Below are positions 41,096 through 63,454 of a stretch of DNA of 64,000 nucleotides, piece by piece (positions within the stretch are counted from its first letter, which is position 1; every line of letters starts with the position of its first letter). A program made the translations under genes and the position numbers. Source of the DNA: Thermosipho sp. (in: thermotogales) (lineage in GTDB: Bacteria; Thermotogota; Thermotogae; Thermotogales; Fervidobacteriaceae). The notes below the pieces were generated by a model, which searched no databases, had not been told where the DNA came from, and saw only the letters and a program-made list of their open reading frames with translations. Location of the stretch: positions 1 to 64,000 of the forward strand of contig JACDNZ010000004.1 in the NCBI GenBank assembly GCA_017656345.1, in the 5' to 3' direction.

Positions 41096-41106
41096 GGGTG
41101 AAAAAG

Positions 41107-41850
41107 TTGAAAATTAAAATTCTATGCAATGATTCTGCAAGAAAGAATTTTTTCTATGAACATGGTCTTTCAATCTTAATCAATGATACTATTTTATTTG
41201 ATACAGGACAATCTGATGTTTTTATCAAAAATGGTAAAAAATTACATGTCGATTTTCAGAAAATTGAAAAAATTTTTATTTCTCATGGGCACTACGATCA
41301 CATTGGAGGTTTAATTCACCTTCAAGGTAAAACAAAAGCAACTGTGTATATCCACAAAAAAGCTTTAATTCCTAAATTTAGCGCCAAAAAATTTGCAGGA
41401 ATTCCCTACGATTGGAGTAAAATTTCATTTAACATTGTCTATATAGAACAAGACACAACCATTGACAATGTACATATCATAAATTCCATCCCAGCAAATA
41501 ACGAAATAATCAATAAGAAATTTAATGTAAACGGAAAACAAGATTTATTTGATGATGAAATAAATTTAATTATTGATAATGTTCTTTTTACAGGATGTGC
41601 TCATAAAGGAATCGAAAACATCTTGAAATATGCGGCAAAAAATTATAAAATAAAAGCTGTGGTTGGTGGATTTCATTTGTTAGATGCTCCAAATGAAAGA
41701 ATTAAACAAATAATTGAGCTTTTTAAAAGTTATAATCTTAATGTTTTCCCATTACATTGCACCGGGAACAATGTGATTAAAATCCTAAAAAAAGAATTAA
41801 ATGAAAAATGTATAGAACTAAAAGCTGGTGATGAATGGAGGATAACATGA
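41107..41850 (+). CDS. Metallo-beta-lactamase-fold hydrolase (COG1237-like)
   Basis: 247 residues. The metal motif SHGHYDHIGG and upstream LFDTGQSDVFIKNG match the MBL-fold group annotated as metal-dependent hydrolases or dihydropterin-ribofuranosyl-aminobenzene 5'-phosphate synthase-like proteins. Later ligands lie in FTGCAHKG and the final PLHCTG. The reaction is unknown. The start is TTG, six bases after AGGGGTG; an in-frame GTG inside that SD is less likely. It overlaps the PadR gene by 4 nt. Confidence 0.82.
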   Translation: MKIKILCNDSARKNFFYEHGLSILINDTILFDTGQSDVFIKNGKKLHVDFQKIEKIFISHGHYDHIGGLIHLQGKTKATVYIHKKALIPKFSAKKFAGIPYDWSKISFNIVYIEQDTTIDNVHIINSIPANNEIINKKFNVNGKQDLFDDEINLIIDNVLFTGCAHKGIENILKYAAKNYKIKAVVGGFHLLDAPNERIKQIIELFKSYNLNVFPLHCTGNNVIKILKKELNEKCIELKAGDEWRIT

Positions 41851-42194
41851 GAAGAGGATCAGGAAGATACAGAAAAACTTTTATTGAACCGTTTATTTTG
41901 TTAATAATAGCAGAAACACCACTCCACGGTTATGAAATCGCAAATAGACTTTCCAAATACGGTATAGAACTTACCGAATTAGGTCAAATGGGCAATTTGT
42001 ACAGAATTCTATCCAAACTTGAAGATGAAAAATACATTACTTCTCAATGGGATTCAAATGCTCAAGGACCTTCTAAAAAGGTTTACTATATCACTCCAAA
42101 GGGTATTGAACAATTAAAAAATAACAAAGAAGAACTATTGAAAGTTAAAAAAATTATTGAAGAATTTATTTCAAAAGTTTCAAAATTTGAGTGA
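41847..42194 (+). CDS. PadR-family transcriptional regulator
   Basis: 115 residues. The winged helix is complete: PFILLIIAETPLHGYEIANR, LYRILSKLEDEKYI and the wing KVYYITPKGIEQLK; one C-terminal helix serves for dimerisation. The N-terminus MRRGSGRYR is basic. It is a close relative in layout of the second PadR gene at 61628. Candidate operators lie downstream (43876-43894 and a half site at 42215). SD GGAGG, ATGA overlap with the previous gene. Confidence 0.9.
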   Translation: MRRGSGRYRKTFIEPFILLIIAETPLHGYEIANRLSKYGIELTELGQMGNLYRILSKLEDEKYITSQWDSNAQGPSKKVYYITPKGIEQLKNNKEELLKVKKIIEEFISKVSKFE

Positions 42195-42243: not shown

Positions 42244-42302
42244 AGATATATGCTAAATAAATATATCTCTTATCAATTTACTAATTTGTGAAAAATATAT
42301 CT
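42244..42302. repeat. Three copies of an ATATATCT octamer in a leader
   Basis: AGATATAT at 42244-42251 faces ATATATCT at 42261-42268 (8-bp arms, 9-bp gap), and a third ATATATCT lies at 42295-42302. In such AT-rich DNA this may be chance, but the spacing suits protein binding or a weak hairpin in the leader. Confidence 0.35.
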
Positions 42303-42402: not shown

Positions 42403-43746
42403 ATGAATAATAAATATGATGTAATTACTATTGGTGGAAGCGCTGCTGGTATTGTTGCAGCAACAACTGGAAAGTGTTGTTATCCCGATAAAAGTTTTTT
42501 AATGATTAGAAAAGAAAAAAATGCATTGGTTCCATGTGGTATACCTTATGTATTTGGATTTTTAGGAACCACTGAAAAAAACATAATACCACTGGAACCA
42601 ATAACAAAGGCAGGCATTGATTTTTTACAGGACGAAGTAATAAAAATTGACAGGGAAAACAAAAAAATCTTTACAAAGAATGGAAAAGAGTTTCAATATG
42701 AAAAGTTAATATTAGCCACCGGCTCAAGACCTTATGTTCCAAACATAAAAGGTAAAGACTTGAAAAACGTATTTACTGTCCCAAAAAACAAGGAATACTT
42801 AGATAATATGCTTGAAAAACTCAAAGAACTAAACAAAATAATAGTTATAGGTGCAGGATTCATTGGGGTCGAAGTATCCGATCAACTAGCTCATATTGGA
42901 AAAGATGTTACTCTCATCGAAATATTACCTCATATCCTGGGTAAAGCATTTGATAGTGATATTGCCAAAATAGCTCAAGAAGAACTTGAAAAATTAGGTG
43001 TAAAAGTTTTGACAAATACAAAAGTTACAGAAATCACTGGAACTGAAAAAGTTAAAGGTGTAACATTAGATAATGGTGAAATTTTAGATGCAGATGCGGT
43101 AATTTTTGCTACTGGATACATCCCAAATTCAGAATTAGCAAGAAACGCTGGGTTGGAATTAAATAAATATAACGCTATAAGAGTTGACAGTTATATGAGA
43201 ACAAACGATCCAGATATTTTTGCAATTGGAGATTGTGCTCAGAAAGTTGATTTCATTACAAGAAGAAGTGTTTCAATAATGCTTGCTTCAACTGCAACAT
43301 CCGAAGCAAGAATTGCTGGAATGAATTTGTACAAACTTTCAACTGTTAGAAGCTTTTTAGGTACAATTGCAATTTTCTCAACTAAAATAGGCAATAAGGT
43401 TTTTGCATCTGCAGGTTTAACTGAAGAAGAAGCACGAAAAAATAACTTTGATGTTAAAACAGGTTATTTTGAAGGAGTTGATAAACATCCTGGTTCTCTT
43501 CCTAACGCAAATAAACAAATAGTCAAATTAATTGTTTCAAAGGAATCAGATGTGGTAATAGGTGGGGAAGTTGTTGGTGGAGACACCGCCGGTGAACTTA
43601 TAAATGTTATTGGTATGGCAATTCAAAACAATGTCAGTATCACAGAATTATTTATTTCGCAAATTGGGACTCATCCTTTACTCACTTCCGCACCAACTGC
43701 CTACCCATTAATTAAAGCTGCACAAAATGTTTTTATATCAAAATAA
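42403..43746 (+). CDS. FAD-dependent NAD(P)H oxidoreductase (NADH oxidase/CoA-disulfide reductase family)
   Basis: 447 residues. FAD motif TIGGSAAGIVAA at the N-terminus, redox-type cysteine in VPCGIPY (residue about 44), NAD motif VIGAGFIGVEVSDQLAHIG, and the late FAD motif AIGDCAQ. The C-terminal dimer domain is present. The single active cysteine fits CoA-disulfide reductases, polysulfide reductases and NADH oxidases; the true acceptor is open. Regulation by Rex and perhaps PadR is suggested by sites upstream. A strong terminator separates it from the MinD-like operon. Confidence 0.88.
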   Translation: MNNKYDVITIGGSAAGIVAATTGKCCYPDKSFLMIRKEKNALVPCGIPYVFGFLGTTEKNIIPLEPITKAGIDFLQDEVIKIDRENKKIFTKNGKEFQYEKLILATGSRPYVPNIKGKDLKNVFTVPKNKEYLDNMLEKLKELNKIIVIGAGFIGVEVSDQLAHIGKDVTLIEILPHILGKAFDSDIAKIAQEELEKLGVKVLTNTKVTEITGTEKVKGVTLDNGEILDADAVIFATGYIPNSELARNAGLELNKYNAIRVDSYMRTNDPDIFAIGDCAQKVDFITRRSVSIMLASTATSEARIAGMNLYKLSTVRSFLGTIAIFSTKIGNKVFASAGLTEEEARKNNFDVKTGYFEGVDKHPGSLPNANKQIVKLIVSKESDVVIGGEVVGGDTAGELINVIGMAIQNNVSITELFISQIGTHPLLTSAPTAYPLIKAAQNVFISK

Positions 43747-43770: not shown

Positions 43771-43810
43771 AAGCCCGCTTTTGTGATTTTGAAAGCGGGC
43801 TTATTTATTA
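43771..43810 (+). terminator. Terminator of the oxidoreductase gene
   Basis: An 11-bp perfect stem AAGCCCGCTTT / AAAGCGGGCTT with a 10-base loop, followed by ATTTATTATG. The T-run is short but the stem is strong. Confidence 0.82.
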
Positions 43811-43837: not shown

Positions 43838-43866
43838 TTGACAGTATTTTATTTGTAGACTATAAT
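43838..43866 (+). promoter_or_regulatory. Consensus promoter of the MinD/NifX-like operon
   Basis: Perfect TTGACA, 17-bp spacer, perfect TATAAT. The start point is expected near 43873. Confidence 0.88.
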
Positions 43867-43875
43867 AAAAACAGA

Positions 43876-43894
43876 TATATGTAAATTACATATA
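43876..43894. promoter_or_regulatory. Perfect 19-bp palindrome, operator of the MinD/NifX-like operon
   Basis: TATATGTAAATTACATATA is a perfect inverted repeat around one central base. It sits just after the predicted start point and touches the SD AGGAGGG. ATGT/ACAT arms are typical of PadR operators, and a PadR gene lies 1.7 kb upstream. A bound repressor would block transcription, and in RNA the palindrome could also fold beside the ribosome site. Confidence 0.75.
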
Positions 43895-43906
43895 GGAGGG
43901 TTGTAC

Positions 43907-44755
43907 GTGAAAATAGCTATTTTAAGCGGAAAAGGAGGAACAGGCAAAACGACCGTTTCAACAAATCTCGCTTGGGTTTTATCCAAAATAACATCAGTTC
44001 AATTACTTGACGCCGATGTAGAAGAACCAAATGATCATATCTTCTTCGATATATCATTTGACCATGAAGAAAGTGTTGATCTTCTACTCCCAGTAGTTAA
44101 CAATGAAACATGCATCAGGTGTGGTGAATGTTCAAAAAACTGTCAATTCGGTGCTATATCAGTATTTAATTCAGGAACTATTGTTTTTGAAAACCTATGT
44201 CATGGATGTGGAGTGTGTAAAATGGTTTGCCCTGTCAATGCCATTACTGAAAAGTCAAAAAGTATCGGCAAAGTAATGCTTGGTACTATAAGTAAAAACC
44301 TTAAATTTGGAATGGGAATTTTGAATATCGGTGAACCCTCTGGAGTAAGAATTATTAGACAACTAAAAAAACATATCGATAATAAAGCTGAAGTTGTTAT
44401 TATCGACTCTCAACCAGGTACTTCCTGCCCTGTTGTAGAAACTTTGAGAAATGTTGACTTTGCTATTCTCGTCACCGAACCAACCACTTTTGGTTTACAT
44501 GACTTATCTTTAGCTATAGAACTTGTCAAAGAAATGAATATTCCTTCTGGAATCATTATTAACAGAGATAATTCCAAAACGAATATAATAGATAAATTTG
44601 CTGAAAAGGAAAATATTCCTATCTTAATGAAAATTCCTTTTAAAAAACAAATTGCAAAAATCTACTCAGAAGGAAATTTATTTTCAAAATTTCTACCAGA
44701 ATTCCAAGAAAAATTTCTTTCAGTCTATAAGATTATAAAGGGGTTGATTGAATGA
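43907..44755 (+). CDS. MinD-superfamily ATPase with inserted ferredoxin domain (Orp-like)
   Basis: 282 residues. Deviant Walker A SGKGGTGKTT at the N-terminus, LLDADVEEPN, and switch region IIDSQPGTSCPV place it in the MinD/Mrp family. Between them two [4Fe-4S] motifs are inserted (CIRCGECSKNC and CHGCGVCKMVC). Paired proteins of exactly this type occur in the orange-protein (ORP) operons of Desulfovibrio. It probably uses ATP to load or move a metal cluster. The start is GTG, six bases after AGGAGGG; a TTG directly against the SD is not usable. Confidence 0.92.
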   Translation: MKIAILSGKGGTGKTTVSTNLAWVLSKITSVQLLDADVEEPNDHIFFDISFDHEESVDLLLPVVNNETCIRCGECSKNCQFGAISVFNSGTIVFENLCHGCGVCKMVCPVNAITEKSKSIGKVMLGTISKNLKFGMGILNIGEPSGVRIIRQLKKHIDNKAEVVIIDSQPGTSCPVVETLRNVDFAILVTEPTTFGLHDLSLAIELVKEMNIPSGIIINRDNSKTNIIDKFAEKENIPILMKIPFKKQIAKIYSEGNLFSKFLPEFQEKFLSVYKIIKGLIE

Positions 44756-45657
44756 AACAAATAGCAATAGTCAGTGGAAAAGGCGGTACAGGAAAAACAA
44801 CCCTAAGTTCCTCTCTTGGAATTTTATTCAAAAACACTATTCTAGCTGATTGTGATGTCGACGCTGCTAATTTAAATCTTATGTTTAACTCAAAAATAAT
44901 TGAGAAATACGATTACTATGGAGGTAAAAAAGCAGTAATTGATCCCAAAAAATGTGACGGATGCGGTATATGTAAAGAAGTGTGTAGATTTGAAGCTGTT
45001 ATATACAAAAATAATATCTATAAAATCGATCAATATGCCTGTGAAGGTTGTAATGCGTGTGTTATTTCCTGCCCCCAGAAAGCCATCAAATTAACTGAAT
45101 CATTATCAGGCAATTATTACTACTCAACTTCTGAAAATAAAAACATTGTACACGCTAATTTAAATCCTGGCGAAGAAACCTCAGGAGGACTCGTTGCAGA
45201 AGTTAGAAAACTTTCAATTGAAAAGGGAAAAATTCTAAAAAAAGAAATTATATTGATTGATGGAGCTCCTGGTATTGGATGTCCAGCCACATCATCAATT
45301 ACAGCAACTTATTTTGTAATTATCGTTACAGAACCTACTTCCTCTGGAATACATGATTTAAAGAGAATTATCGATACTGTCAAACATTTTAAAAGAAATT
45401 TCGCAATAGTAATAAATAAGTACGATATTAACGAAGAAATAACTAATAAAATTGAAGAATTTTGTAAAACCGAAAACATTGAAATACTTGGAAAAATTCC
45501 TTTTGATGAAACGGTGGAAGAAGCAATTCTTAATACTAGACCCGTAGTTACATATGAAAATAGTAAAGCTGCAAAAGCAATAATAGAAATTTATAAAAAA
45601 CTATTAAAAATTATCAAAGAGGAGGGGAAAAATTATGAAAATAGCAATTCCATCTGA
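44752..45657 (+). CDS. Second MinD-superfamily ATPase with inserted ferredoxin domain (Orp-like)
   Basis: 301 residues, a paralogue of the gene before it and joined to it by an ATGA overlap. SGKGGTGKTT, LADCDVDAANLNLMF, ILIDGAPGIGCPA, with two [4Fe-4S] motifs inserted (CDGCGICKEVC and CEGCNACVISC). The two paralogues probably form a heterodimer, since each carries a full P-loop. The C-terminal 20 residues overlap the next gene. Confidence 0.92.
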   Translation: MKQIAIVSGKGGTGKTTLSSSLGILFKNTILADCDVDAANLNLMFNSKIIEKYDYYGGKKAVIDPKKCDGCGICKEVCRFEAVIYKNNIYKIDQYACEGCNACVISCPQKAIKLTESLSGNYYYSTSENKNIVHANLNPGEETSGGLVAEVRKLSIEKGKILKKEIILIDGAPGIGCPATSSITATYFVIIVTEPTSSGIHDLKRIIDTVKHFKRNFAIVINKYDINEEITNKIEEFCKTENIEILGKIPFDETVEEAILNTRPVVTYENSKAAKAIIEIYKKLLKIIKEEGKNYENSNSI

Positions 45658-45979
45658 AGGTAAAACTCTTGATTCAATGATCAACGATAGATATGCACGA
45701 GCTGAGTTTATTATCATTTATGATACTGATAAAGAAGAAATCATTGAAATCATTGAAAATGATACTTCAGAAGCTCACGGTAAAGGTCCAAAAGTTTCAC
45801 AAATGCTAGTAAATAAAGGAATTAAAGTGTTAATAACCCAAAGTGTGGGAAAAAATGCATTTGATGTTCTTAAAGCAGCAAACATTGAAATTTATCTATC
45901 CAAAAAAGATAATATAAAAGATGTGATTCAAAATTACAAAAATGGTAACCTCATAAAAATAGAAAATGCAACAAATTGA
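45635..45979 (+). CDS. NifX/NifB-like dinitrogenase iron-molybdenum cofactor family protein
   Basis: 114 residues. The DiNase_FeMo-co fold is shown by MKIAIPSEGKTLDSMINDRY, EIIENDTSEAHGKGPKVSQM and GIKVLITQSVGKNAFDVLK. Family members bind FeMo-cofactor precursors or, in Desulfovibrio, a Mo-Cu sulfide cluster (ORP). No nitrogenase gene is in the window, so a nitrogen-fixation role is not supported. SD GGAGGGG. It overlaps the second ATPase by 23 nt. Confidence 0.88.
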   Translation: MKIAIPSEGKTLDSMINDRYARAEFIIIYDTDKEEIIEIIENDTSEAHGKGPKVSQMLVNKGIKVLITQSVGKNAFDVLKAANIEIYLSKKDNIKDVIQNYKNGNLIKIENATN

Positions 45980-45988
45980 GGTGGAAGA

Positions 45989-46312
45989 ATGTTAATTGCC
46001 ATAGGAACATTAGATGGTATAAAAATTAATCATGAACATTTTGGTCATTCTAAAATTTATATGATATATGAATTTGATGGAAAGGAACTTATAAAAAAAG
46101 AAGAAAGAAAAAATCCATATGCTGAAACACATTTACATGCAAAAGTAGAAGAAATCCTGGAAATCTTAGGTGATTGTAAAATTTGGGTCGGAAAAACAAT
46201 GGGAAAAAGATCAATGAAAAAACTTGAAGAACTTGGCTATAAACCTATATTGATAAATACTACAAATATCAATGAAACATTAAAAAAATTAAAAGAAAAA
46301 CTGCAGAGGTGA
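45989..46312 (+). CDS. Second NifX/NifB-like protein
   Basis: 107 residues, a divergent member of the same family: LIAIGTLDGIKINHEHFGHS, IYMIYEFDGKELIKKEER and ILGDCKIWVGKTMGKRSMKK. The HFG segment and several histidines (HEHFGH, ETHLHAK) could be metal ligands. It stands four bases before the ferredoxin gene. A pair of dissimilar DiNase proteins in one operon suggests a carrier plus an insertase or a heterodimer. Confidence 0.78.
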   Translation: MLIAIGTLDGIKINHEHFGHSKIYMIYEFDGKELIKKEERKNPYAETHLHAKVEEILEILGDCKIWVGKTMGKRSMKKLEELGYKPILINTTNINETLKKLKEKLQR

Positions 46313-46316
46313 TGTT

Positions 46317-46583
46317 ATGCCATGGGTAAAAAAAGAAAATTGTATCAAATGTCAAGTTTGTATAAACGTTTGTCCTGTAGAAAATGCTATTCATCTTGAA
46401 GAAGATGGTTATCCATTTATAAACAACAACATTTGTACAAGATGTGGGCTATGTATGGAAAAGTGCCCGAAAAATGCTATCCGCCCCAACTATGAGAATC
46501 CTTTACTTAGGGGTTATGGAAAAGGAATGGGGCATGGTTTTGGAAGAGGTCTTGGATATGGAAGAGGTAGAAATAAATATTAA
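46317..46583 (+). CDS. Ferredoxin with Gly-Arg-rich tail
   Basis: 88 residues. Two [4Fe-4S] motifs, CIKCQVCINVCP and CTRCGLCMEKCP, fill the first 55. The last 25 residues are a Gly/Arg/Tyr tail (RGYGKGMGHGFGRGLGYGRG), unlike ordinary ferredoxins but like the DUF5320-type proteins encoded at 62986 and 63236. It is last in the operon and probably supplies electrons to, or docks with, the ATPase/NifX-like complex. Confidence 0.88.
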   Translation: MPWVKKENCIKCQVCINVCPVENAIHLEEDGYPFINNNICTRCGLCMEKCPKNAIRPNYENPLLRGYGKGMGHGFGRGLGYGRGRNKY

Positions 46584-46591
46584 GTTTAAAA

Positions 46592-46629
46592 AAAACAACA
46601 CCCCAAATATCAAAAGGGGTGTTGTTTTT
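46592..46629. terminator. Bidirectional terminator
   Basis: A 13-bp perfect stem AAAACAACACCCC / GGGGTGTTGTTTT with an 11-base loop and T-runs on both strands. It serves the ferredoxin operon and the convergent mbx operon. Confidence 0.9.
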
Positions 46630-46642
46630 AATCGTTTATCAA

Positions 46643-47149
46643 TTACTCAAAAGGATAAAATCCAAGATCTAAGCTATTCTTCTCGTAGATCCTCGAAATA
46701 AGTTCATTAACTAATTTTACATGTCCTTCTTCCCATTTTTTCAAGTTTTCCAAAATTTCTTTCAATTCTTTTTTTCCTAATTCTTCAGCTTTATTTGCAG
46801 CCTTATCGTAAAAATTAACAAAATCCTTTTCAATTAACAATGCCATTCTTAAAATTGATAAATCCTTCAAGTCATCTTCAGAAGGCGTTACTTCAATTTT
46901 TTGAGTTTTAAACTTCTCATCAAAGAAGCTCTTCGTAGTATCAACGATAACTTCTGGAATTTCATTATTTTCCTCAAGTGATTTTCGTATTTTTCTTATA
47001 TATTCTGTATGTTCTTTTTCCATATTTTGTAAAAATTCCAAAATCTCCCTTGCTAATTTATTTCTAATTTCCTCTTTTTTAGCTTTATAAAATTTAAAAC
47101 CCTCTATCTCAAAATTTTCTGCAACTTTTAATATATCTTCAATGGACAT
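46643..47149 (-). CDS. Ferritin-like diiron protein (rubrerythrin-type, no rubredoxin domain)
   Basis: 168 residues. A four-helix bundle with all ligands in view: Glu in FEIEGFKFY, ExxH in MEKEHTEY, Glu in LIEKDFVNFY and ExxH in WEEGHVKL. The rubredoxin domain of true rubrerythrins is missing. Such proteins reduce peroxide or store iron in anaerobes. The start shares one base with the stop of the NuoI-GltD fusion gene (TAATG), so it is the last cistron of the mbx operon, perhaps protecting its iron-sulfur clusters. Confidence 0.85.
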   Translation of the reverse strand: MSIEDILKVAENFEIEGFKFYKAKKEEIRNKLAREILEFLQNMEKEHTEYIRKIRKSLEENNEIPEVIVDTTKSFFDEKFKTQKIEVTPSEDDLKDLSILRMALLIEKDFVNFYDKAANKAEELGKKELKEILENLKKWEEGHVKLVNELISRIYEKNSLDLGFYPFE

Positions 47150-48999
47150 TATTTCACCCCCTTGGAAAGGTATTCATCAATACCTCTAGCTGCCCAGTAT
47201 CCATCAGCTACACCATGAATTATGTCTGGGCCATTTACAATATCCCCACCTGCAAACAACCACTCTATATTTGTTTGTCTATACTCATTTGTAACTAATC
47301 GTCCTCTTACAAACTCAAGTTGTTCTTTCAAATCTTCTGGTAAATAGCTGTAATCCGGAGCTTGACCAATCGCTTCCACTACCATATCTGCATCAAGATA
47401 TAACTTTTGAATTTCATCAAACTTTGGATTAAATCTTCCGTTTTCATCAAAAACTTCCACACACTTCTTTAACTCTACTCCTTTTATTTTTTCTTCATCA
47501 ATGATTATCCTAACTGGTCCCCAACCAGGATAAAATTCAATACCTTCTTCAGAACCTTCCTCTATTTCCTCCATATCCGCAGGCATTTCATCGAAAGTTC
47601 TTTCAAGACTTGTTACCTTTACATCAACCTGTCCGTATTCTACTTTTTGAAGCCTTGCTATTGACCTTGCAACATCCATTGCAACATTTCCTCCGCCAAT
47701 CACAACTAAACTCTTTGGAATTTTTGGTTTTGGACCCTCACCCCTCAAATAGTCCCTTATTTCTCTCAATAAGGGTAATGCTTGTAAAACATCTTCATGA
47801 TCTGTACCGGGTACTTTTGTACTTCTCCCTAACGAAAATCCAGTTGAAATAAATACTGCATCATATTTTTCTTTTAAACTTTCTAAAGAAATATCTTTGC
47901 CCACACTTATACCAACATGAATTTTTACACCAAGAGCTTGAATAAACGCAATATCTTTATCAAGAGCTTCATCGGGTAACCTATATGATGGAATTCCATA
48001 TCTCATTACTCCACCGGGCTTTGAAAGAGATTCAAAAACCTCAACATCATACCCCATGGTTGATAAGAAATATGCTGCTGAAAGCCCTGCAGGGCCTGAA
48101 CCTATAATTGCAATTTTTTTATCTTTTTTCGCTGGCTTTATTTCGATAATTTTCTTGTAATCAGAAACATTATCGACTATATACCTTTTAAGCCATCTAA
48201 TAGCTATTGCTTCCCCTCTATTTCCAATCGAACATGCTTCTTCACATTTATGCGTACACACTCTACCACATACCGCTGAAAATGGATTAGCACCTAACAT
48301 GTTATTAGTTTCGTCACCTTTTAACAACCATTTCAATGCATCATTTAAGTCATCTTTCCATATTGCTTTTATATACTCCGGAATCTGCATATGTTGCGGA
48401 CATCTGTCTGTACACAATGCACATTCAACACATCTAGCTGCTTCATGTATAGCTTGTTCTTTACTATATCCCTTAACATATTCAATAAAAGACTGCACAC
48501 GTTCTTCTCCATCAAGCATTTCCATTTCAACTCTTTCAAGTTCTAGAAGCTCAGAAGCTTCATCTCTTACCCAACCTACAGGAACTTCTTCAATGCCATG
48601 AATTCCCTTTTCGGTAGGCGCAAATATAAAATCTTCAGGCTCAGGTGAAATGTGCACATATTCCCTTGTCATTTTTAAGGAACCAGTAGTACAAATATCT
48701 ACACACATTGCACAAAAAGAGCAACGTCCATAATCAATAACAGGCCTTTGAGGCTTTTGCCCATATTCTTGTGGTAAATCATCGACTTCAACCATTTTTA
48801 TTGCATCAGTTGGACAAATCTTTGCACAAGTTCCACAACCAATGCACTCATTCCAATCATTTATATGAAATCCTCTATATCTTTCCGCTGCTTCTCTTTT
48901 AACATATGGTACTTTTATGGTCACTGGTTTTTTAAATAAAAATTTCCAAGCTTTGATCGGTGAAAAAAAGTCTTTATCTGGCATTGTTTTATTCTTCAT
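47149..48999 (-). CDS. Fusion of NuoI/MbxN ferredoxin subunit and GltD/NfnB-like flavoprotein
   Basis: 616 residues. Residues 45-110 hold two [4Fe-4S] motifs (C52/55/58/62 and C93/96/99/103), as in NuoI/MbxN. Residues 185-260 hold the GltD/NfnB cysteine set (C190/193/196/200 and C244/248/252/256). Then comes the FAD motif GSGPAG at 300-305, the NAD(P) motif IGGGNVAMD at 434-442 and a final AGGDIVNGP. It would connect the membrane complex to NAD(P)H. Archaeal MbxN lacks the flavoprotein half. SD GGGAGGTGG. Glutamate synthase is unlikely: no large subunit is present. Confidence 0.9.
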   Translation of the reverse strand: MKNKTMPDKDFFSPIKAWKFLFKKPVTIKVPYVKREAAERYRGFHINDWNECIGCGTCAKICPTDAIKMVEVDDLPQEYGQKPQRPVIDYGRCSFCAMCVDICTTGSLKMTREYVHISPEPEDFIFAPTEKGIHGIEEVPVGWVRDEASELLELERVEMEMLDGEERVQSFIEYVKGYSKEQAIHEAARCVECALCTDRCPQHMQIPEYIKAIWKDDLNDALKWLLKGDETNNMLGANPFSAVCGRVCTHKCEEACSIGNRGEAIAIRWLKRYIVDNVSDYKKIIEIKPAKKDKKIAIIGSGPAGLSAAYFLSTMGYDVEVFESLSKPGGVMRYGIPSYRLPDEALDKDIAFIQALGVKIHVGISVGKDISLESLKEKYDAVFISTGFSLGRSTKVPGTDHEDVLQALPLLREIRDYLRGEGPKPKIPKSLVVIGGGNVAMDVARSIARLQKVEYGQVDVKVTSLERTFDEMPADMEEIEEGSEEGIEFYPGWGPVRIIIDEEKIKGVELKKCVEVFDENGRFNPKFDEIQKLYLDADMVVEAIGQAPDYSYLPEDLKEQLEFVRGRLVTNEYRQTNIEWLFAGGDIVNGPDIIHGVADGYWAARGIDEYLSKGVK

Positions 49000-49014
49000 A
49001 ATATTCCACCTCCC

Positions 49015-50118
49015 TTATCTGTCAACCTCTGGAGCACAAACATCCATTGTAGAGAGCCATATTGGAACATCCTCTATTCTGGTTCCTGGTAAATATTTCT
49101 CTACACCGATAAATGTTTGAGGATATGATGCACCACGAACTGCTACCCTATATGGTTTTTCCCCACCGTCGGAAACCATAAAGTAACCATATTCTCCTCT
49201 CGTTGATTCAATATGTACATAAGCCTGACCTTTCGGAACTTTATATCTAAGTGCACTACCCTCACTTAAAGGAACATTTACTTTTCCTTCGGGCATCTTT
49301 TCAAGACATTGTCTTATGATTTTTATACTCTGATATATTTCCAGATATTTAAGATAAACTCTTGAATATGCATCACCATCAGTTGCAGTTGGAATCTCAA
49401 AATCAACTTTGTCATAAAACAAGTAAGGATCAACTTTTCTAATATCATATGGTACTCCAGTTGCTCTTAAACCTACACCTGTAACACCCAATTCTAATGC
49501 AGTTTCTCTATCAAGCAATGCTATTCCTTTTAATCTTGTATGAACAATTCTATTTTTAAATATTAAATCCTCATAATCTGGTAATCGGCCTTCAATATAA
49601 TCTAACGTTTTTACAATAAGGTCTTGAATTTTTGGTGTTAAATCCTTTCTGACACCACCTGGTACAATAAACATATGATAAATTCTCGCTCCAGTTAAAC
49701 TTTCGAAAATATCCAATATACGATCTCTATCAGCTACTCCCCAAAAAGAACTTGTATAAAGTCCTAAAGGGCCACCAATACCGGGGAAACTCATCATATG
49801 ACTTGCAATTCTTGCTAGTTCTAAAATAATCATTCTTATCCACTGCGCCCTTTCAGGTACATCTATCTTTGCAATTTTTTCAATTGCCATAGCATAACAT
49901 ACTTCATTAATATCAGGCTCTGGAACACATATCCTTGGAATTAAAGCTAAATTCTGATACCATAATCTCCTTTCCATCAATTTTTCAAAACCCCTGTGTA
50001 AAAAACCAGGTAATGGCCTTGCTCTTTCAACAGTATCCCCTTCTACATACATGTGTACACTGAAGTTTCCATGCATTCCTGGATGATTCGGACCAAAAAA
50101 GAGTTTAACTTCACCCAT
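49015..50118 (-). CDS. mbxL: NuoD/MbxL-like catalytic-domain subunit
   Basis: 367 residues, homologous to the NiFe-hydrogenase large subunit and NuoD (FGPNHPGMHGNFSVHMYVEG, LPGFLHRGFEKLMERR, STRGEYGYFMVSDGG). Of the four nickel cysteines only one per pair remains: C64 in RICVPEPD (usual RxCxxC; E67 replaces the second) and C361 in DVCAPE (usual DPCxxC; E364 replaces the second). It cannot hold a normal NiFe site. The same state is known in archaeal Mbx/Mbs. It overlaps the NuoC-like gene by 8 nt. Confidence 0.9.
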   Translation of the reverse strand: MGEVKLFFGPNHPGMHGNFSVHMYVEGDTVERARPLPGFLHRGFEKLMERRLWYQNLALIPRICVPEPDINEVCYAMAIEKIAKIDVPERAQWIRMIILELARIASHMMSFPGIGGPLGLYTSSFWGVADRDRILDIFESLTGARIYHMFIVPGGVRKDLTPKIQDLIVKTLDYIEGRLPDYEDLIFKNRIVHTRLKGIALLDRETALELGVTGVGLRATGVPYDIRKVDPYLFYDKVDFEIPTATDGDAYSRVYLKYLEIYQSIKIIRQCLEKMPEGKVNVPLSEGSALRYKVPKGQAYVHIESTRGEYGYFMVSDGGEKPYRVAVRGASYPQTFIGVEKYLPGTRIEDVPIWLSTMDVCAPEVDR

Positions 50119-50641
50119 TTAAATCACCTCTTATTACTTTTGCTTCATGAATAACATCTTTATGATATTCTCTATCCGGGAATTTTTTCTTAGAATATTC
50201 CATCGGATCAAAATCTTTCCTCAATGGTGGTAAATCATCCCAGTTTTCCAAGAAAAGAGGTCTCATATCATCGTTACCTTCGAAACTGATACCAAAAAAC
50301 TCGTGAAGTTCCCTTTCATAATACCTCGCGATTGGCCATAAATGTTTAACAGTAACAAATTTTGCTTTCTTTCTATCTATTTTTGTTGAAACAATAAATT
50401 TACCACCATCATTCCACGAAAACAAAATATACACAAGTTCAAACTTATTTTCTTCTATCCAATCAACAGCTGTAATGATAGACAAGTGTGAATAACCGCT
50501 GCCTTTTAAAAGAGATAAAGCGTTTAAAACCATCTCTGGTTTTATTTCAATCTTTACTTCTCTTTCATCTATTTCTTCCACTTTCAAATTTCTAATTATC
50601 GATTTCAATCTTTCAATAGTATTATTCATGGAATTCGTCAT
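50111..50641 (-). CDS. mbxK: NuoC/MbxK-like subunit
   Basis: 176 residues. The conserved complex I 30-kDa motif WPIARYYERELHEFFGISFE is present, followed by PLRKDFDPMEY. It is part of the peripheral arm and has no cofactor. The start is the first ATG, seven bases after GGGGAGGTG. It overlaps the NuoB-like gene by 20 nt. Confidence 0.9.
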   Translation of the reverse strand: MTNSMNNTIERLKSIIRNLKVEEIDEREVKIEIKPEMVLNALSLLKGSGYSHLSIITAVDWIEENKFELVYILFSWNDGGKFIVSTKIDRKKAKFVTVKHLWPIARYYERELHEFFGISFEGNDDMRPLFLENWDDLPPLRKDFDPMEYSKKKFPDREYHKDVIHEAKVIRGDLNG

Positions 50642-51164
50642 GTATAAACACCTCCCCTAGTGAGCGCAACTGGTTCTGCTTATACCATTCATAATTTTCT
50701 TTGTATCTTTTCCAGCCATTTGCTTCTCCTTTTCTAATCATTCTCATAAGTTCATTAAAAGCTTCTAGCAATGCTTCAGGCCTTGGCATACAACCGGCAA
50801 TGTATAAATCAACTGGTATATAATAATCCAGTCTATTTATAGTTGCATATGAATCATAATATATTCCACCATTTAATGTACATGAGCCAAAACCAATTAC
50901 ATACTTGGGCTCTGGCATTTGCTCATATGTATAAATAACTCTTCTAAGTGTCTTTGCACTTAGATAACCCGTTATAAATAAAATATCAGCTTGTCTTGGG
51001 GTAGCCATTGGTCCCATTCCAAATCTTTCCATATCAAATCTCGAGGTCATAGATGGTGGTAGCTCTATAGCACCACATCCAGTACAATAATGAAGCATCC
51101 ATAATGATTTACTCCTTAATTGATCAGCTATTTTTTCCCATATACTTCTTTCGTTTGTAGACAT
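50622..51164 (-). CDS. mbxJ: NuoB/MbxJ-like iron-sulfur subunit
   Basis: 180 residues. Four cysteines for the proximal [4Fe-4S] cluster: two in YCTGCGAIELP, one in GFGSCTLNGG and one in AGCMPRPEA. It passes electrons between the ferredoxin subunit and the MbxL pocket. The start is an ATG behind GGAGGTGG; a GTG nine bases upstream is inside the SD. It begins 12 bases after the NuoH-like gene. Confidence 0.93.
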   Translation of the reverse strand: MSTNERSIWEKIADQLRSKSLWMLHYCTGCGAIELPPSMTSRFDMERFGMGPMATPRQADILFITGYLSAKTLRRVIYTYEQMPEPKYVIGFGSCTLNGGIYYDSYATINRLDYYIPVDLYIAGCMPRPEALLEAFNELMRMIRKGEANGWKRYKENYEWYKQNQLRSLGEVFIHDEFHE

Positions 51165-51176
51165 CCCAGCCACCTC

Positions 51177-52058
51177 CTAAAATACCCAACCAAGTAGTAC
51201 AAACAAAACCTGAACAAAAGCTAAACTTAATGGTACCTTCCAATAAAATTTTACAACTTGTTCGATTCTAAACCTTGGCAATACCGCGGAAATTAAAGTT
51301 GCAATTATCCAAACAACAGTAAATTTCAAAAGAAATGTTAAATAATTACTTATACCCAAGAATATATCAACAAACAAACTTATCTCAACAAATATCGAAA
51401 AAGTATGCATCAACATCAAAAGCCCCATATATTTTGCTGAAAGTTCAACCATAGGACCCGATGCAATTTCCGCAGGTGCTATTGGCGTATCAAAAGGTTT
51501 TTTCCCTAACATTCCTAATAAAGAAATAAAAGCAACTATTCCACCTATCGGCATTTTAAATAATGTCCAGGTATCTTGTTGGGCCATCATCAATCCTGAA
51601 ACTGAACTTGTCTTGTAATAATATAAAACTCCTGCTATAGCAACTAAATATGGTACTTCATATCCTAGCATCTGTGTCAATGCTCTTGCTACACCGATAC
51701 TAGCATTAGGATTACCTGAGCCAACCATCCCCATTGCCATTCCAAGAGCTCCCACTGCAAATAAATATACAATTATAAAAATATTATCAAGTCCTGGAAA
51801 AGCTACTAAATCACCTAAAGGCACAAAGGCTAATGTTGCAATAACTCCTCCCAAAGCCATTAAAATTCCAAAATCAAAGATCCAACCATGGGAAATTCCC
51901 CTTTTTGAAAGTGCTTTAAAAACATCTATAAAATTTTGGTACCATGGTGGACCATATCTTCTTTGTACTCTTGCCATTATTTTTCTAGCAATACCTTCCA
52001 ACGTTAAACCCACAAAAAATCCAGTCAATAAAACAGCTATTACTCTTAATACTGTCAT
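51177..52058 (-). CDS. mbxM: NuoH/MbxM-like membrane subunit
   Basis: 293 residues, about eight membrane helices. Family marks are EGIARKIMARVQRRYGPPWY near the start and GKKPFDTPIAPAEIASGPMV, with acidic residues of the E-channel. It links the peripheral arm to the antiporter-like subunits. Compact operon spacing continues (4-11 bases). Confidence 0.93.
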   Translation of the reverse strand: MTVLRVIAVLLTGFFVGLTLEGIARKIMARVQRRYGPPWYQNFIDVFKALSKRGISHGWIFDFGILMALGGVIATLAFVPLGDLVAFPGLDNIFIIVYLFAVGALGMAMGMVGSGNPNASIGVARALTQMLGYEVPYLVAIAGVLYYYKTSSVSGLMMAQQDTWTLFKMPIGGIVAFISLLGMLGKKPFDTPIAPAEIASGPMVELSAKYMGLLMLMHTFSIFVEISLFVDIFLGISNYLTFLLKFTVVWIIATLISAVLPRFRIEQVVKFYWKVPLSLAFVQVLFVLLGWVF

Positions 52059-52061
52059 TAT

Positions 52062-53906
52062 CTACCACCTCACCCAAAATAATATGAGGATTACAATTGT
52101 TATCCAGAAAACATAACCACTTGGACTAGTCTTATAAACCAACTTATATGTAAAATATCCAATATATCTGAAAAATGAAACTAATTTTTCATACAGCTTT
52201 TCAAAAGAAGGATGTTTGTCATATAATCTTTCAATAAATCTATAAAATCCTGTTGCATAATGATATAAGTCATAATTGTAAAGATATTCTCCTCCAGTAT
52301 ACTGATCTGTTAAATCCACCTTTTTCCCTTTTGGGAATATCATATACAAAATAGCAGCAATTATAAATCCAACAGAAAACATTGTAAAAACAGTCAAAGT
52401 ATTCCATTGACCAAGAGGAGTTTTTATAATTGTTCCACTATGTTCAATTGCTTTAATTCCTACCTCATTTTCTATAGAAACAATACTATCTAAAACTGGT
52501 TTAGGATAAACACCAATCAAAATTGTTAAAATCACAAATAACAACATTGGAACAAGCATTATTATTGGTACTTCCTTCACATCAGAATGTTTTCTCTTCA
52601 ATTGTCCCAAAAACACCCCTGCAAGTGGTCTGAAAACATAAAGGAAAGAACCAACACTACCAATAAACGTTATTGCTAAAGTAATAAACATACCTTTACT
52701 AACAAGTGAACTAAAAATCATCCATTTTGATATAAAACCGCTTGTTGGAGGAATTCCCGCTAATGAAATTATTCCAACAAGATACGTGACAAATGTCCAT
52801 GGCATACGCCAAATTAATCCGCCCATTTCATCAATTTTAGTAGTTCCAGTTCTATAGACAACAGCCGCAAAAGATAAAAATATCATAGCAGCAGCTATTG
52901 CATGGTTAAATACATGAAAAAGTCCCCCAGCATAACCTATCGAGTTCATAATTCCTAATCCAACAAGAATATAACCACCATTTGCAATTGATGAAAAAGC
53001 AATTAATTGTTTCATATCATTCTGTCTAATAGCCATAAATGTACCAATTAATATTGAAATGTTACCAAGCCAGATTAAAACATAATTTAACAATGGTACT
53101 CCATGATAAAATGAAGAAAATAACTGTGTTGTAGGGAACACCGAAAGAGCAATTGCTAATACATATGAACCCATCTTTACTAATTGTCCAGATAAAACTG
53201 CGCTAAAAGCATCTGGAGCATTACCATGTGTAATTCTAAGCCATGTATGTAGTGGGAAAATACCACTCTTTGCAATCCCAGCACTCGCAATGAATAAAAT
53301 CACAAACCATTTAAATAAATTTGAAGAATCATTTGCTAAATATTGGGAAACCTGCTCAAACGAAAGAATCCCATATCTCTGGTAAATTGAAAAAGTTGCA
53401 AAAAGATACATATAACTTCCTATAGCACTTGTTACTACATATATAATTGCAGCTCTTTTTGATTCCTTCTTTCCCATTGGAACTATCAAAAATGATCCTA
53501 AAACTGCTATTTCCCAGAAAATATAAAGAGTCAATAAATCATTTGAGAAAAACACTCCCAGTATTCCAGAAACCATTAATAACAAAAATGAGTTGAAAGC
53601 AGCTGGTTTAATATCTTTTTTGCGAATCCACTCTATTATGAAAAATGCAACAAAAGAAATTACTATTAAACTTACTATAGCAAAATATTTCCCTAAATTT
53701 GTAACTTTTAAGGTTCTTTCTACATCCCTTAAAATTCTAAAAAGTACTTCTTCATGACCAACTTTAATGTTCCACACTACATAAAGAGCGTACGATATTA
53801 ATAAAAAGTTAAAAATTGATCCTAAAATCTTATTAGCTTTTGTTAATAAATAGCTTACAATTGAACCTATTAGGAAAACTAAAATCAAATTAGTCAATGA
53901 TATCAT
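52062..53906 (-). CDS. NuoL/M- and MrpD-like antiporter subunit (larger MbxH type)
   Basis: 614 residues, 14 or more membrane helices. The family's ion-channel residues are present: Glu in LYIFWEIAVLGSF and Lys in AGIAKSGIFPLHTWLR, with HNHAIAAAMIF-like HVFNHAIAAA further on. It is one of two antiporter-like subunits here, matching H and H' of archaeal Mbx; which is which is not certain. The extra C-terminal region (about 480-614) includes a soluble loop and a terminal helix. Confidence 0.88.
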   Translation of the reverse strand: MISLTNLILVFLIGSIVSYLLTKANKILGSIFNFLLISYALYVVWNIKVGHEEVLFRILRDVERTLKVTNLGKYFAIVSLIVISFVAFFIIEWIRKKDIKPAAFNSFLLLMVSGILGVFFSNDLLTLYIFWEIAVLGSFLIVPMGKKESKRAAIIYVVTSAIGSYMYLFATFSIYQRYGILSFEQVSQYLANDSSNLFKWFVILFIASAGIAKSGIFPLHTWLRITHGNAPDAFSAVLSGQLVKMGSYVLAIALSVFPTTQLFSSFYHGVPLLNYVLIWLGNISILIGTFMAIRQNDMKQLIAFSSIANGGYILVGLGIMNSIGYAGGLFHVFNHAIAAAMIFLSFAAVVYRTGTTKIDEMGGLIWRMPWTFVTYLVGIISLAGIPPTSGFISKWMIFSSLVSKGMFITLAITFIGSVGSFLYVFRPLAGVFLGQLKRKHSDVKEVPIIMLVPMLLFVILTILIGVYPKPVLDSIVSIENEVGIKAIEHSGTIIKTPLGQWNTLTVFTMFSVGFIIAAILYMIFPKGKKVDLTDQYTGGEYLYNYDLYHYATGFYRFIERLYDKHPSFEKLYEKLVSFFRYIGYFTYKLVYKTSPSGYVFWITIVILILFWVRW

Positions 53907-61627: not shown

Positions 61628-62002
61628 TTACTCATTTTCATCAAAATTTTTGTATTCTTTTAGAAACAATTTCAATTGATTATACAAATTCTCAATCTCT
61701 CTAGTTATAAAATCCAAATACCGTTCACCTTCTGGAGTAATTTTATAAACCTTTCTAAAAGGTCCTCCACCGGCTTCAAGATCATAAGTAATAAGGCCAT
61801 TTACTTCCATCTTTCTCAACAAATTATAAACAACAGCTGGATCATGTTTAAAATCATAGAAGTCTGCTTCCAATAATCTTTGAATTAACTCATAACCATG
61901 TGAAGGATTTTTTTTGAGTAATAATAATAAGGTAGCTGATAAAAAATCACCTAACACAAATCCCCTTCTTCCATGTGGCCCTTTTCCAAAACCTCTAGGC
62001 AC
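61628..62002 (-). CDS. PadR-family regulator
   Basis: 124 residues from a GTG start. The winged helix is complete: SATLLLLLKKNPSHGYELIQ, VYNLLRKMEVNGLITYD and FRKVYKITPEGERYL. The N-terminus PRGFGKGPHGRRGF is Gly/Arg-rich, echoing the small proteins upstream. The GTG follows GGAGGTGAATAC, an SD embedded in the stop of the radical SAM gene; the longer frame starting at 62044 has none. Confidence 0.9.
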   Translation of the reverse strand: MPRGFGKGPHGRRGFVLGDFLSATLLLLLKKNPSHGYELIQRLLEADFYDFKHDPAVVYNLLRKMEVNGLITYDLEAGGGPFRKVYKITPEGERYLDFITREIENLYNQLKLFLKEYKNFDENE

Positions 62003-62006
62003 GTAT

Positions 62007-62918
62007 TCACCTCCAATTTTTAAATCTAAAAAAAATTTTACCATTATAACTACACTTTTCTACATTTTTATCATTAAACAATTTTTTTATTATTTTCTCA
62101 CTGTTTTTAAAGTTTCTCTGGATATCCTCTAATCTTAATGGGTGTCTTTTTATAATACCAATAATTGCTTCATATACATTACTATTTAACGTTTTAAACT
62201 CTCCTTCTGCATACTTCTCAATTGTACTCGCATTTAAAATTTTTTTAGCCAAACTAATATTTTGCTCCTCAGGTATTTTAACCCATTCCTCAGCAGGAGG
62301 CCTAATTGGGACATTAACAAATACTTTGTCAGGATTAATTTCATCAATCTTTTCTTTTATTTTTTTTAAACTCTCGTAATTATCATTAACTCCTTTTATC
62401 AACATTACTTCTAACCAAATTTCACCTTTAAATTCTTTTCTAAGCTCACATAAACCATTATACATCTTTTCGAAAGTTATAGTACCAACTGGTCTATTAA
62501 TTAACCTAAAACTCTCTTCATCCCAGGCATCAAGAGTTGGCATTATAATATCACAATTCTTTACCTCATTTCTCACATCTTCTTCAAAAAAAAGAGAACC
62601 ATTGGTAATTAAAACAACTTTTTTATTCGTTAATTTTTTTATTCCATTTATTAAACGATCCAAAGGCGTATATAACAAAGGTTCACCCTCGCTAACAATT
62701 GTTACTACATCAAAATCATTTCCTAAATCCAAATACTTTTCAAACTCGTCTAAAATTTCTTCTAGAGGATAAAATGTTTCCCTTTTTATTCTCATGTTAT
62801 GAGTTTTACCCAATTGACAATAAATACATGAATAATTGCAAACTTTGAATGGTATTGGAGAAATACCCAGTGACTTTCCCAATCTTCTGGAAGGAACAAC
62901 ACCATAAACATATTTCAT
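62007..62918 (-). CDS. Radical SAM protein (COG0731/TYW1-like group)
   Basis: 303 residues. N-terminal YVYGVVPSRRLGKSLGISPI and cluster motif CNYSCIYCQLGKT are typical of the group annotated as radical SAM proteins related to wybutosine synthesis and to cofactor maturases. The GEPLL (SEGEPLLY) and VNVPIRPPAEEWVKIPEE segments are family marks. The substrate is unknown. The start is the ATG after AGAGGGTTG; a frame opening 48 bases earlier has no SD. It shares a transcript with the PadR gene. Confidence 0.88.
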   Translation of the reverse strand: MKYVYGVVPSRRLGKSLGISPIPFKVCNYSCIYCQLGKTHNMRIKRETFYPLEEILDEFEKYLDLGNDFDVVTIVSEGEPLLYTPLDRLINGIKKLTNKKVVLITNGSLFFEEDVRNEVKNCDIIMPTLDAWDEESFRLINRPVGTITFEKMYNGLCELRKEFKGEIWLEVMLIKGVNDNYESLKKIKEKIDEINPDKVFVNVPIRPPAEEWVKIPEEQNISLAKKILNASTIEKYAEGEFKTLNSNVYEAIIGIIKRHPLRLEDIQRNFKNSEKIIKKLFNDKNVEKCSYNGKIFFRFKNWR

Positions 62919-62942
62919 AACATTCAACCCTCTTTCAATCCT

Positions 62943-62948
62943 ATTATA
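62943..62948 (-). promoter_or_regulatory. Promoter -10 for the radical SAM-PadR-tdk operon
   Basis: TATAAT on the minus strand directly after the terminator at 62953-62983. The -35 region would lie within that terminator stem. Confidence 0.4.
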
Positions 62949-62952
62949 TAAC

Positions 62953-62983
62953 AAAATCCCCCACAAAAATTGTGGGGGATTTT
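62953..62983 (-). terminator. Terminator of the DUF5320-like gene pair
   Basis: A 14-bp perfect stem AAAATCCCCCACAA / TTGTGGGGGATTTT with a three-base loop, followed by TTTTGTTATA on the minus strand. Confidence 0.88.
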
Positions 62984-62985
62984 AT

Positions 62986-63234
62986 TTACCATAATCTTCT
63001 TCCGAATCCTCGGCCAAACCCTCGGCCTCCTGCAAATCCATAACCTCTTCCATAACCCCATCCTGCTCTTCTACCAAAACCCCATCCTATTCCTCGACCA
63101 AAACCGTAACCTCTTCCAAATCCACCAATATAAGGATTAAACCAAACATTTCTTAAATTATACGTCCCGCAATATCCTCTTCTCCATCCAATTGGTCCTG
63201 TTCCAAGTGGTCCTGTTCCATCAAAACCTGGCAT
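62986..63234 (-). CDS. Gly-Arg-rich DUF5320-type protein
   Basis: 82 residues from the chosen ATG (MPGFDGTGPLGTGPIGWRR), the usual DUF5320 opening. The remainder is Gly/Phe/Arg/Tyr repeats (GFGRGYGFGRGIGWGFGRR). In other anaerobes this family sits beside NifX-like and MinD-like ferredoxin ATPase genes; here such genes lie 16 kb away at 43907-46583. No enzyme motif. One base separates it from the gene upstream; SD AGGAGGTG. Confidence 0.8.
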   Translation of the reverse strand: MPGFDGTGPLGTGPIGWRRGYCGTYNLRNVWFNPYIGGFGRGYGFGRGIGWGFGRRAGWGYGRGYGFAGGRGFGRGFGRRLW

Positions 63235-63235
63235 A

Positions 63236-63454
63236 TCATTCACCTCCTTGCAAAATTTCATCTATCTCTTTCAATCTTTTTTCTACAAAAGCAAGTTCAC
63301 TTTTTAAATATTCTCTGTAATCTAATAGCATTTCTCTTTCATCCTCAAGAATAAATCTCTCATCTTCGGGCCCATAATAATATGGATCATATCTTCTCCA
63401 CCTGAAACCTCTCCCAAAGCCTCTTCCATACCCATAACCTCTATACCATCTCAT
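63236..63454 (-). CDS. Small protein: Gly-Arg head and coiled-coil tail
   Basis: 72 residues. The first 20 are Gly/Arg/Tyr (WYRGYGYGRGFGRGF), then an acidic linker and a coiled coil (about 35-68: LLDYREYLKSELAFVEKRL). This head-plus-coil layout occurs in proteins paired with DUF5320 members. It probably partners the product of the next gene. Function unknown. SD AAGGAGGTG. Confidence 0.72.
   Translation of the reverse strand: MRWYRGYGYGRGFGRGFRWRRYDPYYYGPEDERFILEDEREMLLDYREYLKSELAFVEKRLKEIDEILQGGE

Follow-up and report, generated by a model that had tools for sequence, protein, structure and literature searches.

The five-gene operon at 43838-46583 of the Thermosipho sp. window, the 64,000-nucleotide stretch analysed here (bases 1-64000 of contig C4), encodes two MinD-type ATPases, two NifX-fold proteins and a ferredoxin. 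On balance we favour the view that it is a PadR-controlled module with which anaerobes hold and deliver iron sulfide, related to the archaeal protein IssA, and not a system for a Mo-Cu cluster. We read it in terms of iron-sulfide and Fe-S handling because its homologues have Mrp/NBP35, NifU/IscU-like, Fur and DtxR genes as neighbours, and because a third NifX gene of the genome heads the suf operon. An earlier reading, made from the sequence only, had likened the operon to the orange protein (ORP) operons of Desulfovibrio, where the NifX-like protein holds a Mo-Cu sulfide cluster. What is new is the combination of tail proteins on other carriers with a conserved operator, which was not found in the open-access literature.

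All five genes are present and co-directional, with no gap above 10 bp when the region is read and translated directly, and their names are backed by Pfam and NCBIfam. Pfam gives CbiA/ParA and two Fer4 domains in each ATPase, PF02579 in NifXa (3.5e-20) and NifXb (9.4e-13), and two Fer4 domains in the last gene, and the promoter TTGACA-17-TATAAT is the sole 12/12 match within 5 kb. The sequence-only reading was therefore correct in describing a tight operon under a perfect consensus promoter, with two MinD-type ATPases each carrying two inserted [4Fe-4S] motifs, two NifX/NifB-like proteins and a ferredoxin. An upstream and a downstream terminator enclose one transcription unit. The start of MinD1 was placed at GTG 43907, since the TTG listed at 43901 leaves no spacing behind the Shine-Dalgarno AGGAGG. 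Four features add to that description, namely a palindrome (TATATGTAAATTACATATA) behind the promoter, a Gly/Arg tail on the ferredoxin, the upstream metallo-beta-lactamase (MBL)-PadR-flavoprotein genes, and a satellite group of genes at 61628-63454.

By their phylogeny, MinD1 and MinD2 are an ancient pair, jointly retained across Bacteria and Archaea, because all 95 two-copy loci in a tree of 208 MinD sequences have one copy on each side of a single branch with support 100. The MinD/NifX gene set is not peculiar to Thermotogae and is widespread in both domains. A scan with MinD1 and MinD2 over 84,980 species gave at least 80 loci; among the matches listed these are spread over many varied phyla of both domains, and 67/80 have a NifX gene within 3 kb in the same orientation, 55/80 at least two. 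The hosts are highly diverse bacteria and archaea that avoid oxygen. The deviant Walker A motif (KGGTGKT(T/S)) reads GKGGTGKT in MinD1, MinD2 and nearly all of the 208 homologues, this motif being also among the scan patterns. The eight cysteines of the inserted CxxCxxCxxxC motifs are invariant but for one substitution at one position, and a ninth, C177, is invariant in 208/208. C177 lies in switch II (IDxxPGxxCP) at D170+7, which is the spacing from Asp125 to the cluster ligand Cys132 in NifH (NifH sequence checked against the PDB), while the genome's Mrp has Asp at the equivalent place. In the AlphaFold model of MinD2 (predicted local distance difference test, pLDDT, 92) C177 stands at the start of a helix.

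The best solved fold matches of this model are MinD proteins (1hyq, 4.7e-14), with NifH, HypB and BchL lower down; no solved structure of the ferredoxin-inserted MinD family occurs among the 50 best matches listed. Such matches would suit a positioning or cell-division system, in which the MinD-like pair localises a complex and the metal parts serve as redox sensor, and the ORP complex has indeed been proposed to take part in cell division (PMC6345978). We regard this as very improbable, since the neighbouring genes are Fe-S and iron genes and not division genes, the eight plus one cysteines are invariant, and the Mrp/NBP35 (ApbC) proteins, which belong to the same superfamily, carry Fe-S clusters. 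The latter are likewise deviant Walker A ATPases which bind and hand on Fe-S clusters. The MinD pair differs from them in the inserted 8-Cys ferredoxin domain and the switch-II Cys, none of the 208 homologues shows a conserved C-terminal CxxC pair of the Mrp/NBP35 kind, and a Mrp of 270 aa is encoded separately in the genome.

One half of the comparison with ORP stands. As in the Desulfovibrio ORP complex (Orp3, 4, 5, 8, 9; PMC6345978, PMC3897727), two MinD-type proteins with two [4Fe-4S] motifs each accompany a NifX-fold protein; the pair is of the Orp3/Orp4 kind, and NifXa is homologous to D. gigas ORP (2wfb, E 1.7e-10; PMC6345978). The other half, NifX as an ORP-type Mo-Cu protein, was not supported. 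The nearest solved structure of NifXa is T. maritima TM1290 (1rdu, E 5e-30), followed by MTH1175 and only then by D. gigas ORP. In a 194-row NifX tree, D. gigas ORP falls in a 16-row clade of mostly Desulfo-type loci (L093, L114, L058 and L084 among them) with a Shimodaira-Hasegawa-like approximate likelihood ratio (SH-aLRT) of 98, excluding both NifXa and NifXb; the tree is of a short domain, has no bootstrap and leaves most forks unresolved, and only the exclusion from the ORP (Orp8) clade is used here. NifXb matched NifX/NifB models weakly and gave no match to the PDB at 1e-3 (phmmer).

The search of the genome for ORP components, which the sequence-only reading had proposed, pointed the same way. 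There is no MrpORP (Orp9, Mrp fused to PF02579) in the genome, where Mrp lacks a NifX-type domain and none of the three PF02579 genes is fused; Sigma54_DBD is absent from the genome too, and the operon promoter is of the sigma-70 and not the sigma-54 type. As for Mo supply genes, MoaA (79 bits, cut-off 284) and ModA (22.6, cut-off 62.5) were both below cut-off, while other Mo/W transporters were not searched for. The Gly/Arg-tailed ferredoxin and the DUF5320 proteins of the window are further differences from the Desulfovibrio complex. On the three features tested by sequence (NifX clade, MrpORP, sigma-54) the operon is not an ORP system, and with the Mo genes also against it we lowered the Mo-Cu ORP identity, so that a protein for an ORP-type Mo-Cu or other heterometal sulfide cluster now seems quite unlikely. 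The statement that no nitrogenase lies nearby can be extended to the whole genome (assembly of 2.12 Mb, 96.6% complete), in which NifDK (PF00148) was not found and NifB reached 36.9 bits against a cut-off of 343.65; nitrogenase is thus excluded at the genome level. The close relatives of ORP in L093, L058 and L084 carry Gly/Arg-rich tails, and the ORP and IssA types may therefore be nearer to each other than the literature implies.

Comparison of gene order within Thermotogae, which had also been suggested, placed the operon among the ferredoxin-inserted MinD and NifX gene sets, as found in T. maritima. The latter has MinD-MinD-TM1290-ferredoxin-radical S-adenosylmethionine (SAM) protein (COG1149/COG1433-type), that is, the same genes in the same order, with the NifX protein solved as 1rdu and a tailed ferredoxin. 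The second NifX is lacking in T. maritima; the window has it, together with PadR-1 and the operator, and its radical SAM gene lies about 16 kb off with the DUF5320 genes. Over the 108 residues compared, the NifX protein of a same-order genome matches the solved one of T. maritima at 100% identity.

Our comparison points to IssA as a closer functional analogue than ORP. IssA (PF2025, Pyrococcus furiosus) stores thioferrate and rebuilds [4Fe-4S] ferredoxin, and MinD genes are not mentioned in the paper that describes it (PMC5524996); in the literature searched it is the only characterised iron-sulfide store. Both systems have the PF02579/IPR003731 fold, a cationic Gly/Arg/aromatic tail chemistry, sulfur-rich anaerobic hosts and Fe-S genes around them. 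In the window, however, the NifX proteins are tail-less, the tail chemistry is found on the ferredoxin and DUF5320, and the operon also includes a pair of MinD-type ATPases. By the NifX tail test the operon is thus not IssA, though it may function like it.

The ferredoxin ends in LLRGYGKGMGHGFGRGLGYGRGRNKY, and tails are present on 24/24 of the related operon ferredoxins that were detected within Thermotogota, among them that of T. maritima (RGMGRGFGRG...). These tails measure 15-43 residues, with 20-51% Gly and 17-33% Arg/Lys; the chemistry is kept while sequence and length vary. AlphaFold gave no usable model of the ferredoxin alone (pLDDT 50). Around 86 MinD loci, Gly/Arg segments occur in 38/433 co-directional open reading frames within 2 kb and in 5/328 farther off (p 9e-6), the carriers being NifX C-termini (in L058, L067, L084, L093, L115 and L121), stand-alone DUF5320 proteins, ferredoxins, and the N-termini of PadR and Fur-type regulators. 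A replacement of the ferredoxin by stand-alone Gly/Arg proteins in L046 and L047 was considered and rejected when tblastn found the ferredoxin there. DUF5320, for which the open-access literature gave only unrelated text matches, is associated with the MinD pair in Thermotogota genomes (55/4/13/31, p 1e-11, uncorrected for shared ancestry), and in 33 of the 55 genomes having both it lies within 5 kb of MinD2.

The palindrome between the -10 element and the Shine-Dalgarno sequence is conserved. Its exact core is found within 1.3 kb upstream of MinD1 in 22/38 Thermotogota loci (21 besides the window), while shuffled stretches predict 0.13; close relatives among these loci are not independent, and the sites are present in several families with differing flanks. 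It stands mostly directly after the -10 and before the first gene of the unit, be that MinD1 or a DUF5320 gene. Within Thermotogota the operator accompanies a linked PadR-1 gene in 12/12 loci and is found in 10/26 without one (p 0.0003), and this co-occurrence suggests that PadR-1 probably binds the palindrome and regulates the operon. Sites related to the degenerate copy in the window occur upstream of the same flavoprotein gene in L042 and L043. The operator did not define a genome-wide regulon (18 sites against 27 in the reversed control), and no Fe-S gene adjoins any of the three further exact sites in the genome.

Besides NifX, which is recurrent, the neighbours of the 86 MinD loci include Mrp/NBP35 (23), MBL-fold hydrolases (17), DUF134 (15), radical SAM proteins (12), DUF5320 (11), NifU/IscU-like proteins (9), Fur (6), PadR (6), flavoproteins like that of the window (6) and DtxR (3). 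The third PF02579 gene (L187:7901-8299, G000 contig C7) has a His-rich insert, lies just after groEL and is 157 bp upstream of sufC, with sufC-sufB-sufD-sufS-sufU on the same strand. This Fe-S and iron-sulfide context is in line with the metal-cluster operon of the sequence-only reading. It also bears on the possibility that the operon matures one enzyme, such as the adjacent MBX-type complex, a hydrogenase or another complex Fe-S enzyme, with NifX holding a special Fe-S precursor, much as NifB-co is carried by NifX and NifB domains while nitrogenase is assembled (PMC5524996). An MBX-type cluster (NuoN/M/H/B/C/D-like genes and a NuoI-GltD fusion, PRK13984) is indeed divergent from the operon at 47149-55265, and the linkage is kept in three close relatives. 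However, MBX-type genes are unlinked in the other Thermotogota loci examined and in the wide survey, and no one target enzyme recurs, whereas general Fe-S and iron-regulation genes do. We therefore consider the maturation of a single enzyme unlikely, though a more serious alternative than the two discussed above.

If the operon holds and delivers iron sulfide, MinD1 and MinD2 would form a heteromeric ATPase, each partner with two [4Fe-4S] clusters fed by the ferredoxin as electron supplier, and the switch-II Cys of each could contact a cluster as ATP is hydrolysed. The NifX-fold proteins would hold iron-sulfide species non-covalently, and the ATPase pair would load them, unload them or pass the iron sulfide held on NifX to apo-proteins. 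The Gly/Arg/aromatic segments of the ferredoxin tail and DUF5320 may act as flexible cationic scaffolds that bind anionic iron sulfide, a role already put forward for the tail of IssA. The strong promoter is probably repressed by PadR-1 at the palindrome and might be released when iron or sulfide is abundant. In Allochromatium vinosum, the adjacent genes Alvin_1737-1740 encode NifX, two 'cobyrinic acid ac-diamide synthases' and NifX, and on pyrite their levels were some 8 to 45 times below those on dissolved sulfide (PMC11267869); from annotation and order we infer that the two synthases belong to this MinD family.

Several points weigh against such a module. NifXa and NifXb end without a tail and so fail the sequence hallmark of IssA, and NifXa has no Cys. 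In a profile alignment of the MinD family with NifH, the switch-II segment was not reliably aligned because of the ferredoxin insert, and the parallel at D+7 is therefore one of spacing only. PadR as the operator binder is a matter of linkage, and 10 loci have the site with no PadR-1 gene nearby. DUF5320 occurs in 13 Thermotogota genomes that lack the MinD pair, and metal, binding or mutant data on these proteins were not found in the open-access literature.

It is tempting to speculate further that the operon is an iron-sulfide store of bacteria whose tail is supplied in trans, in which DUF5320 and the ferredoxin tail scaffold a thioferrate-like polymer, the tail-less NifX proteins nucleate it and MinD1-MinD2 loads or empties it; this more specific proposal is tentative, and we hold it with clearly less confidence than the general one. 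If true, it would give a first function to DUF5320 and to the ferredoxin-inserted MinD family, and would carry thioferrate storage beyond Thermococcales into many phyla of Bacteria and Archaea. The question bears on how strict anaerobes hold iron and sulfide and supply many Fe-S enzymes, and it brings several uncharacterised families (the MinD pair, tail-less NifX, DUF5320, the ferredoxin tails) and the operator under one joint hypothesis. Experiments could start directly from the invariant switch-II Cys and from the operator, and T. maritima, with the same operon and a solved NifX (TM1290), is suited as a test organism.

Features of the operon, its upstream genes and the satellite group in the window (positions and strand as in the window)
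Feature	Position	Strand	Remarks
MBL-fold hydrolase, recurrent neighbour	41098..41850	+	family near MinD in 17/86 loci
PadR-1, probable operon regulator	41835..42194	+	PF03551, 4.4e-19; linked in 12 Thermotogota loci
Degenerate operator copy upstream of flavoprotein gene	42247..42265	+	1 mismatch in 12
CoA-disulfide reductase / NAD(P)H sulfur oxidoreductase (NSR)-like flavoprotein, own unit	42403..43746	+	terminator 43771-43802; recurrent neighbour
Sigma-70 promoter TTGACA-N17-TATAAT	43838..43866	+	12/12 consensus
Predicted operator palindrome TATATGTAAATTACATATA, core ATATG-N7-CATAT, between -10 and Shine-Dalgarno AGGAGG	43876..43894	+	conserved exact core
MinD1, deviant Walker A ATPase, two inserted [4Fe-4S] motifs and switch-II Cys	43907..44755	+	
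MinD2, paralogue and putative partner of MinD1, same architecture	44752..45657	+	
NifXa, PF02579 protein without cysteine	45635..45979	+	
NifXb, second PF02579 protein, HFGHS and ETHLH motifs	45989..46312	+	
2x[4Fe-4S] ferredoxin	46317..46583	+	
Coding for ferredoxin Gly/Arg/aromatic C-terminal tail (LLRGYGKGMGHGFGRGLGYGRGRNKY)	46503..46580	+	
Intrinsic terminator of operon	about 46591..46629	+	-20.6 kcal/mol, z -5.6
Satellite: PadR-2, Gly/Arg-rich N-terminus (VPRGFGKGPHGRRGF...)	61628..62002	-	
Satellite: COG0731-like radical SAM protein	62007..62918	-	
Satellite: second Gly/Arg-rich DUF5320 protein (MPGFDGTGPLGTGPIGWRRG...)	62986..63237	-	
Satellite: Gly/Arg-rich DUF5320 protein, 72 aa	63236..63454	-	

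The upstream MBL, PadR and flavoprotein genes travel with the operon. The flavoprotein groups with CoA-disulfide reductases and gave no phmmer match at 1e-60; NSR enzymes from T. maritima and archaea, flavoproteins of the same broad kind, reduce S0 and polysulfide, and nsr and mbx of T. maritima are up on sulfur (PMC9431562). Beside the MBX-type genes lies a rubrerythrin-like gene (46643-47149), and the block 46643-55265 stands end to end with the operon. Members of the COG0731-like radical SAM family of the satellite adjoin MinD in 12/86 loci, and in T. maritima such a gene immediately follows the operon. Beside MinD pairs at L062:4914-5288 and L123:4258-4749 stand PadR and Fur-type regulators whose N-termini, like that of PadR-2, carry a Gly/Arg-rich extension, which might sense the same iron-sulfide material.

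Some relatives differ in gene content. Another genome of the same genus as the window (G018) is without the MinD pair and keeps two DUF5320 genes, and two genera of the window's family (g2 and g3) are without the MinD pair, the ferredoxin and DUF5320. The MinD1 of L158 (G060) and the MinD2 of L175 (G093) are split into several frames, as decaying or misassembled copies. In both MinD trees the operon of L157-L161 (G058-G063, genus g32 of another family, f10) groups with the window's own family, while same-order relatives fall outside this grouping, which looks like lateral transfer. In L042 (6400-6530, G019) a decayed remnant is all that is left of NifXb between NifXa and the ferredoxin, whose tail has shrunk to LLRGIGRGIRQQFKK; from this locus, the second NifX and the tail may be lost together.

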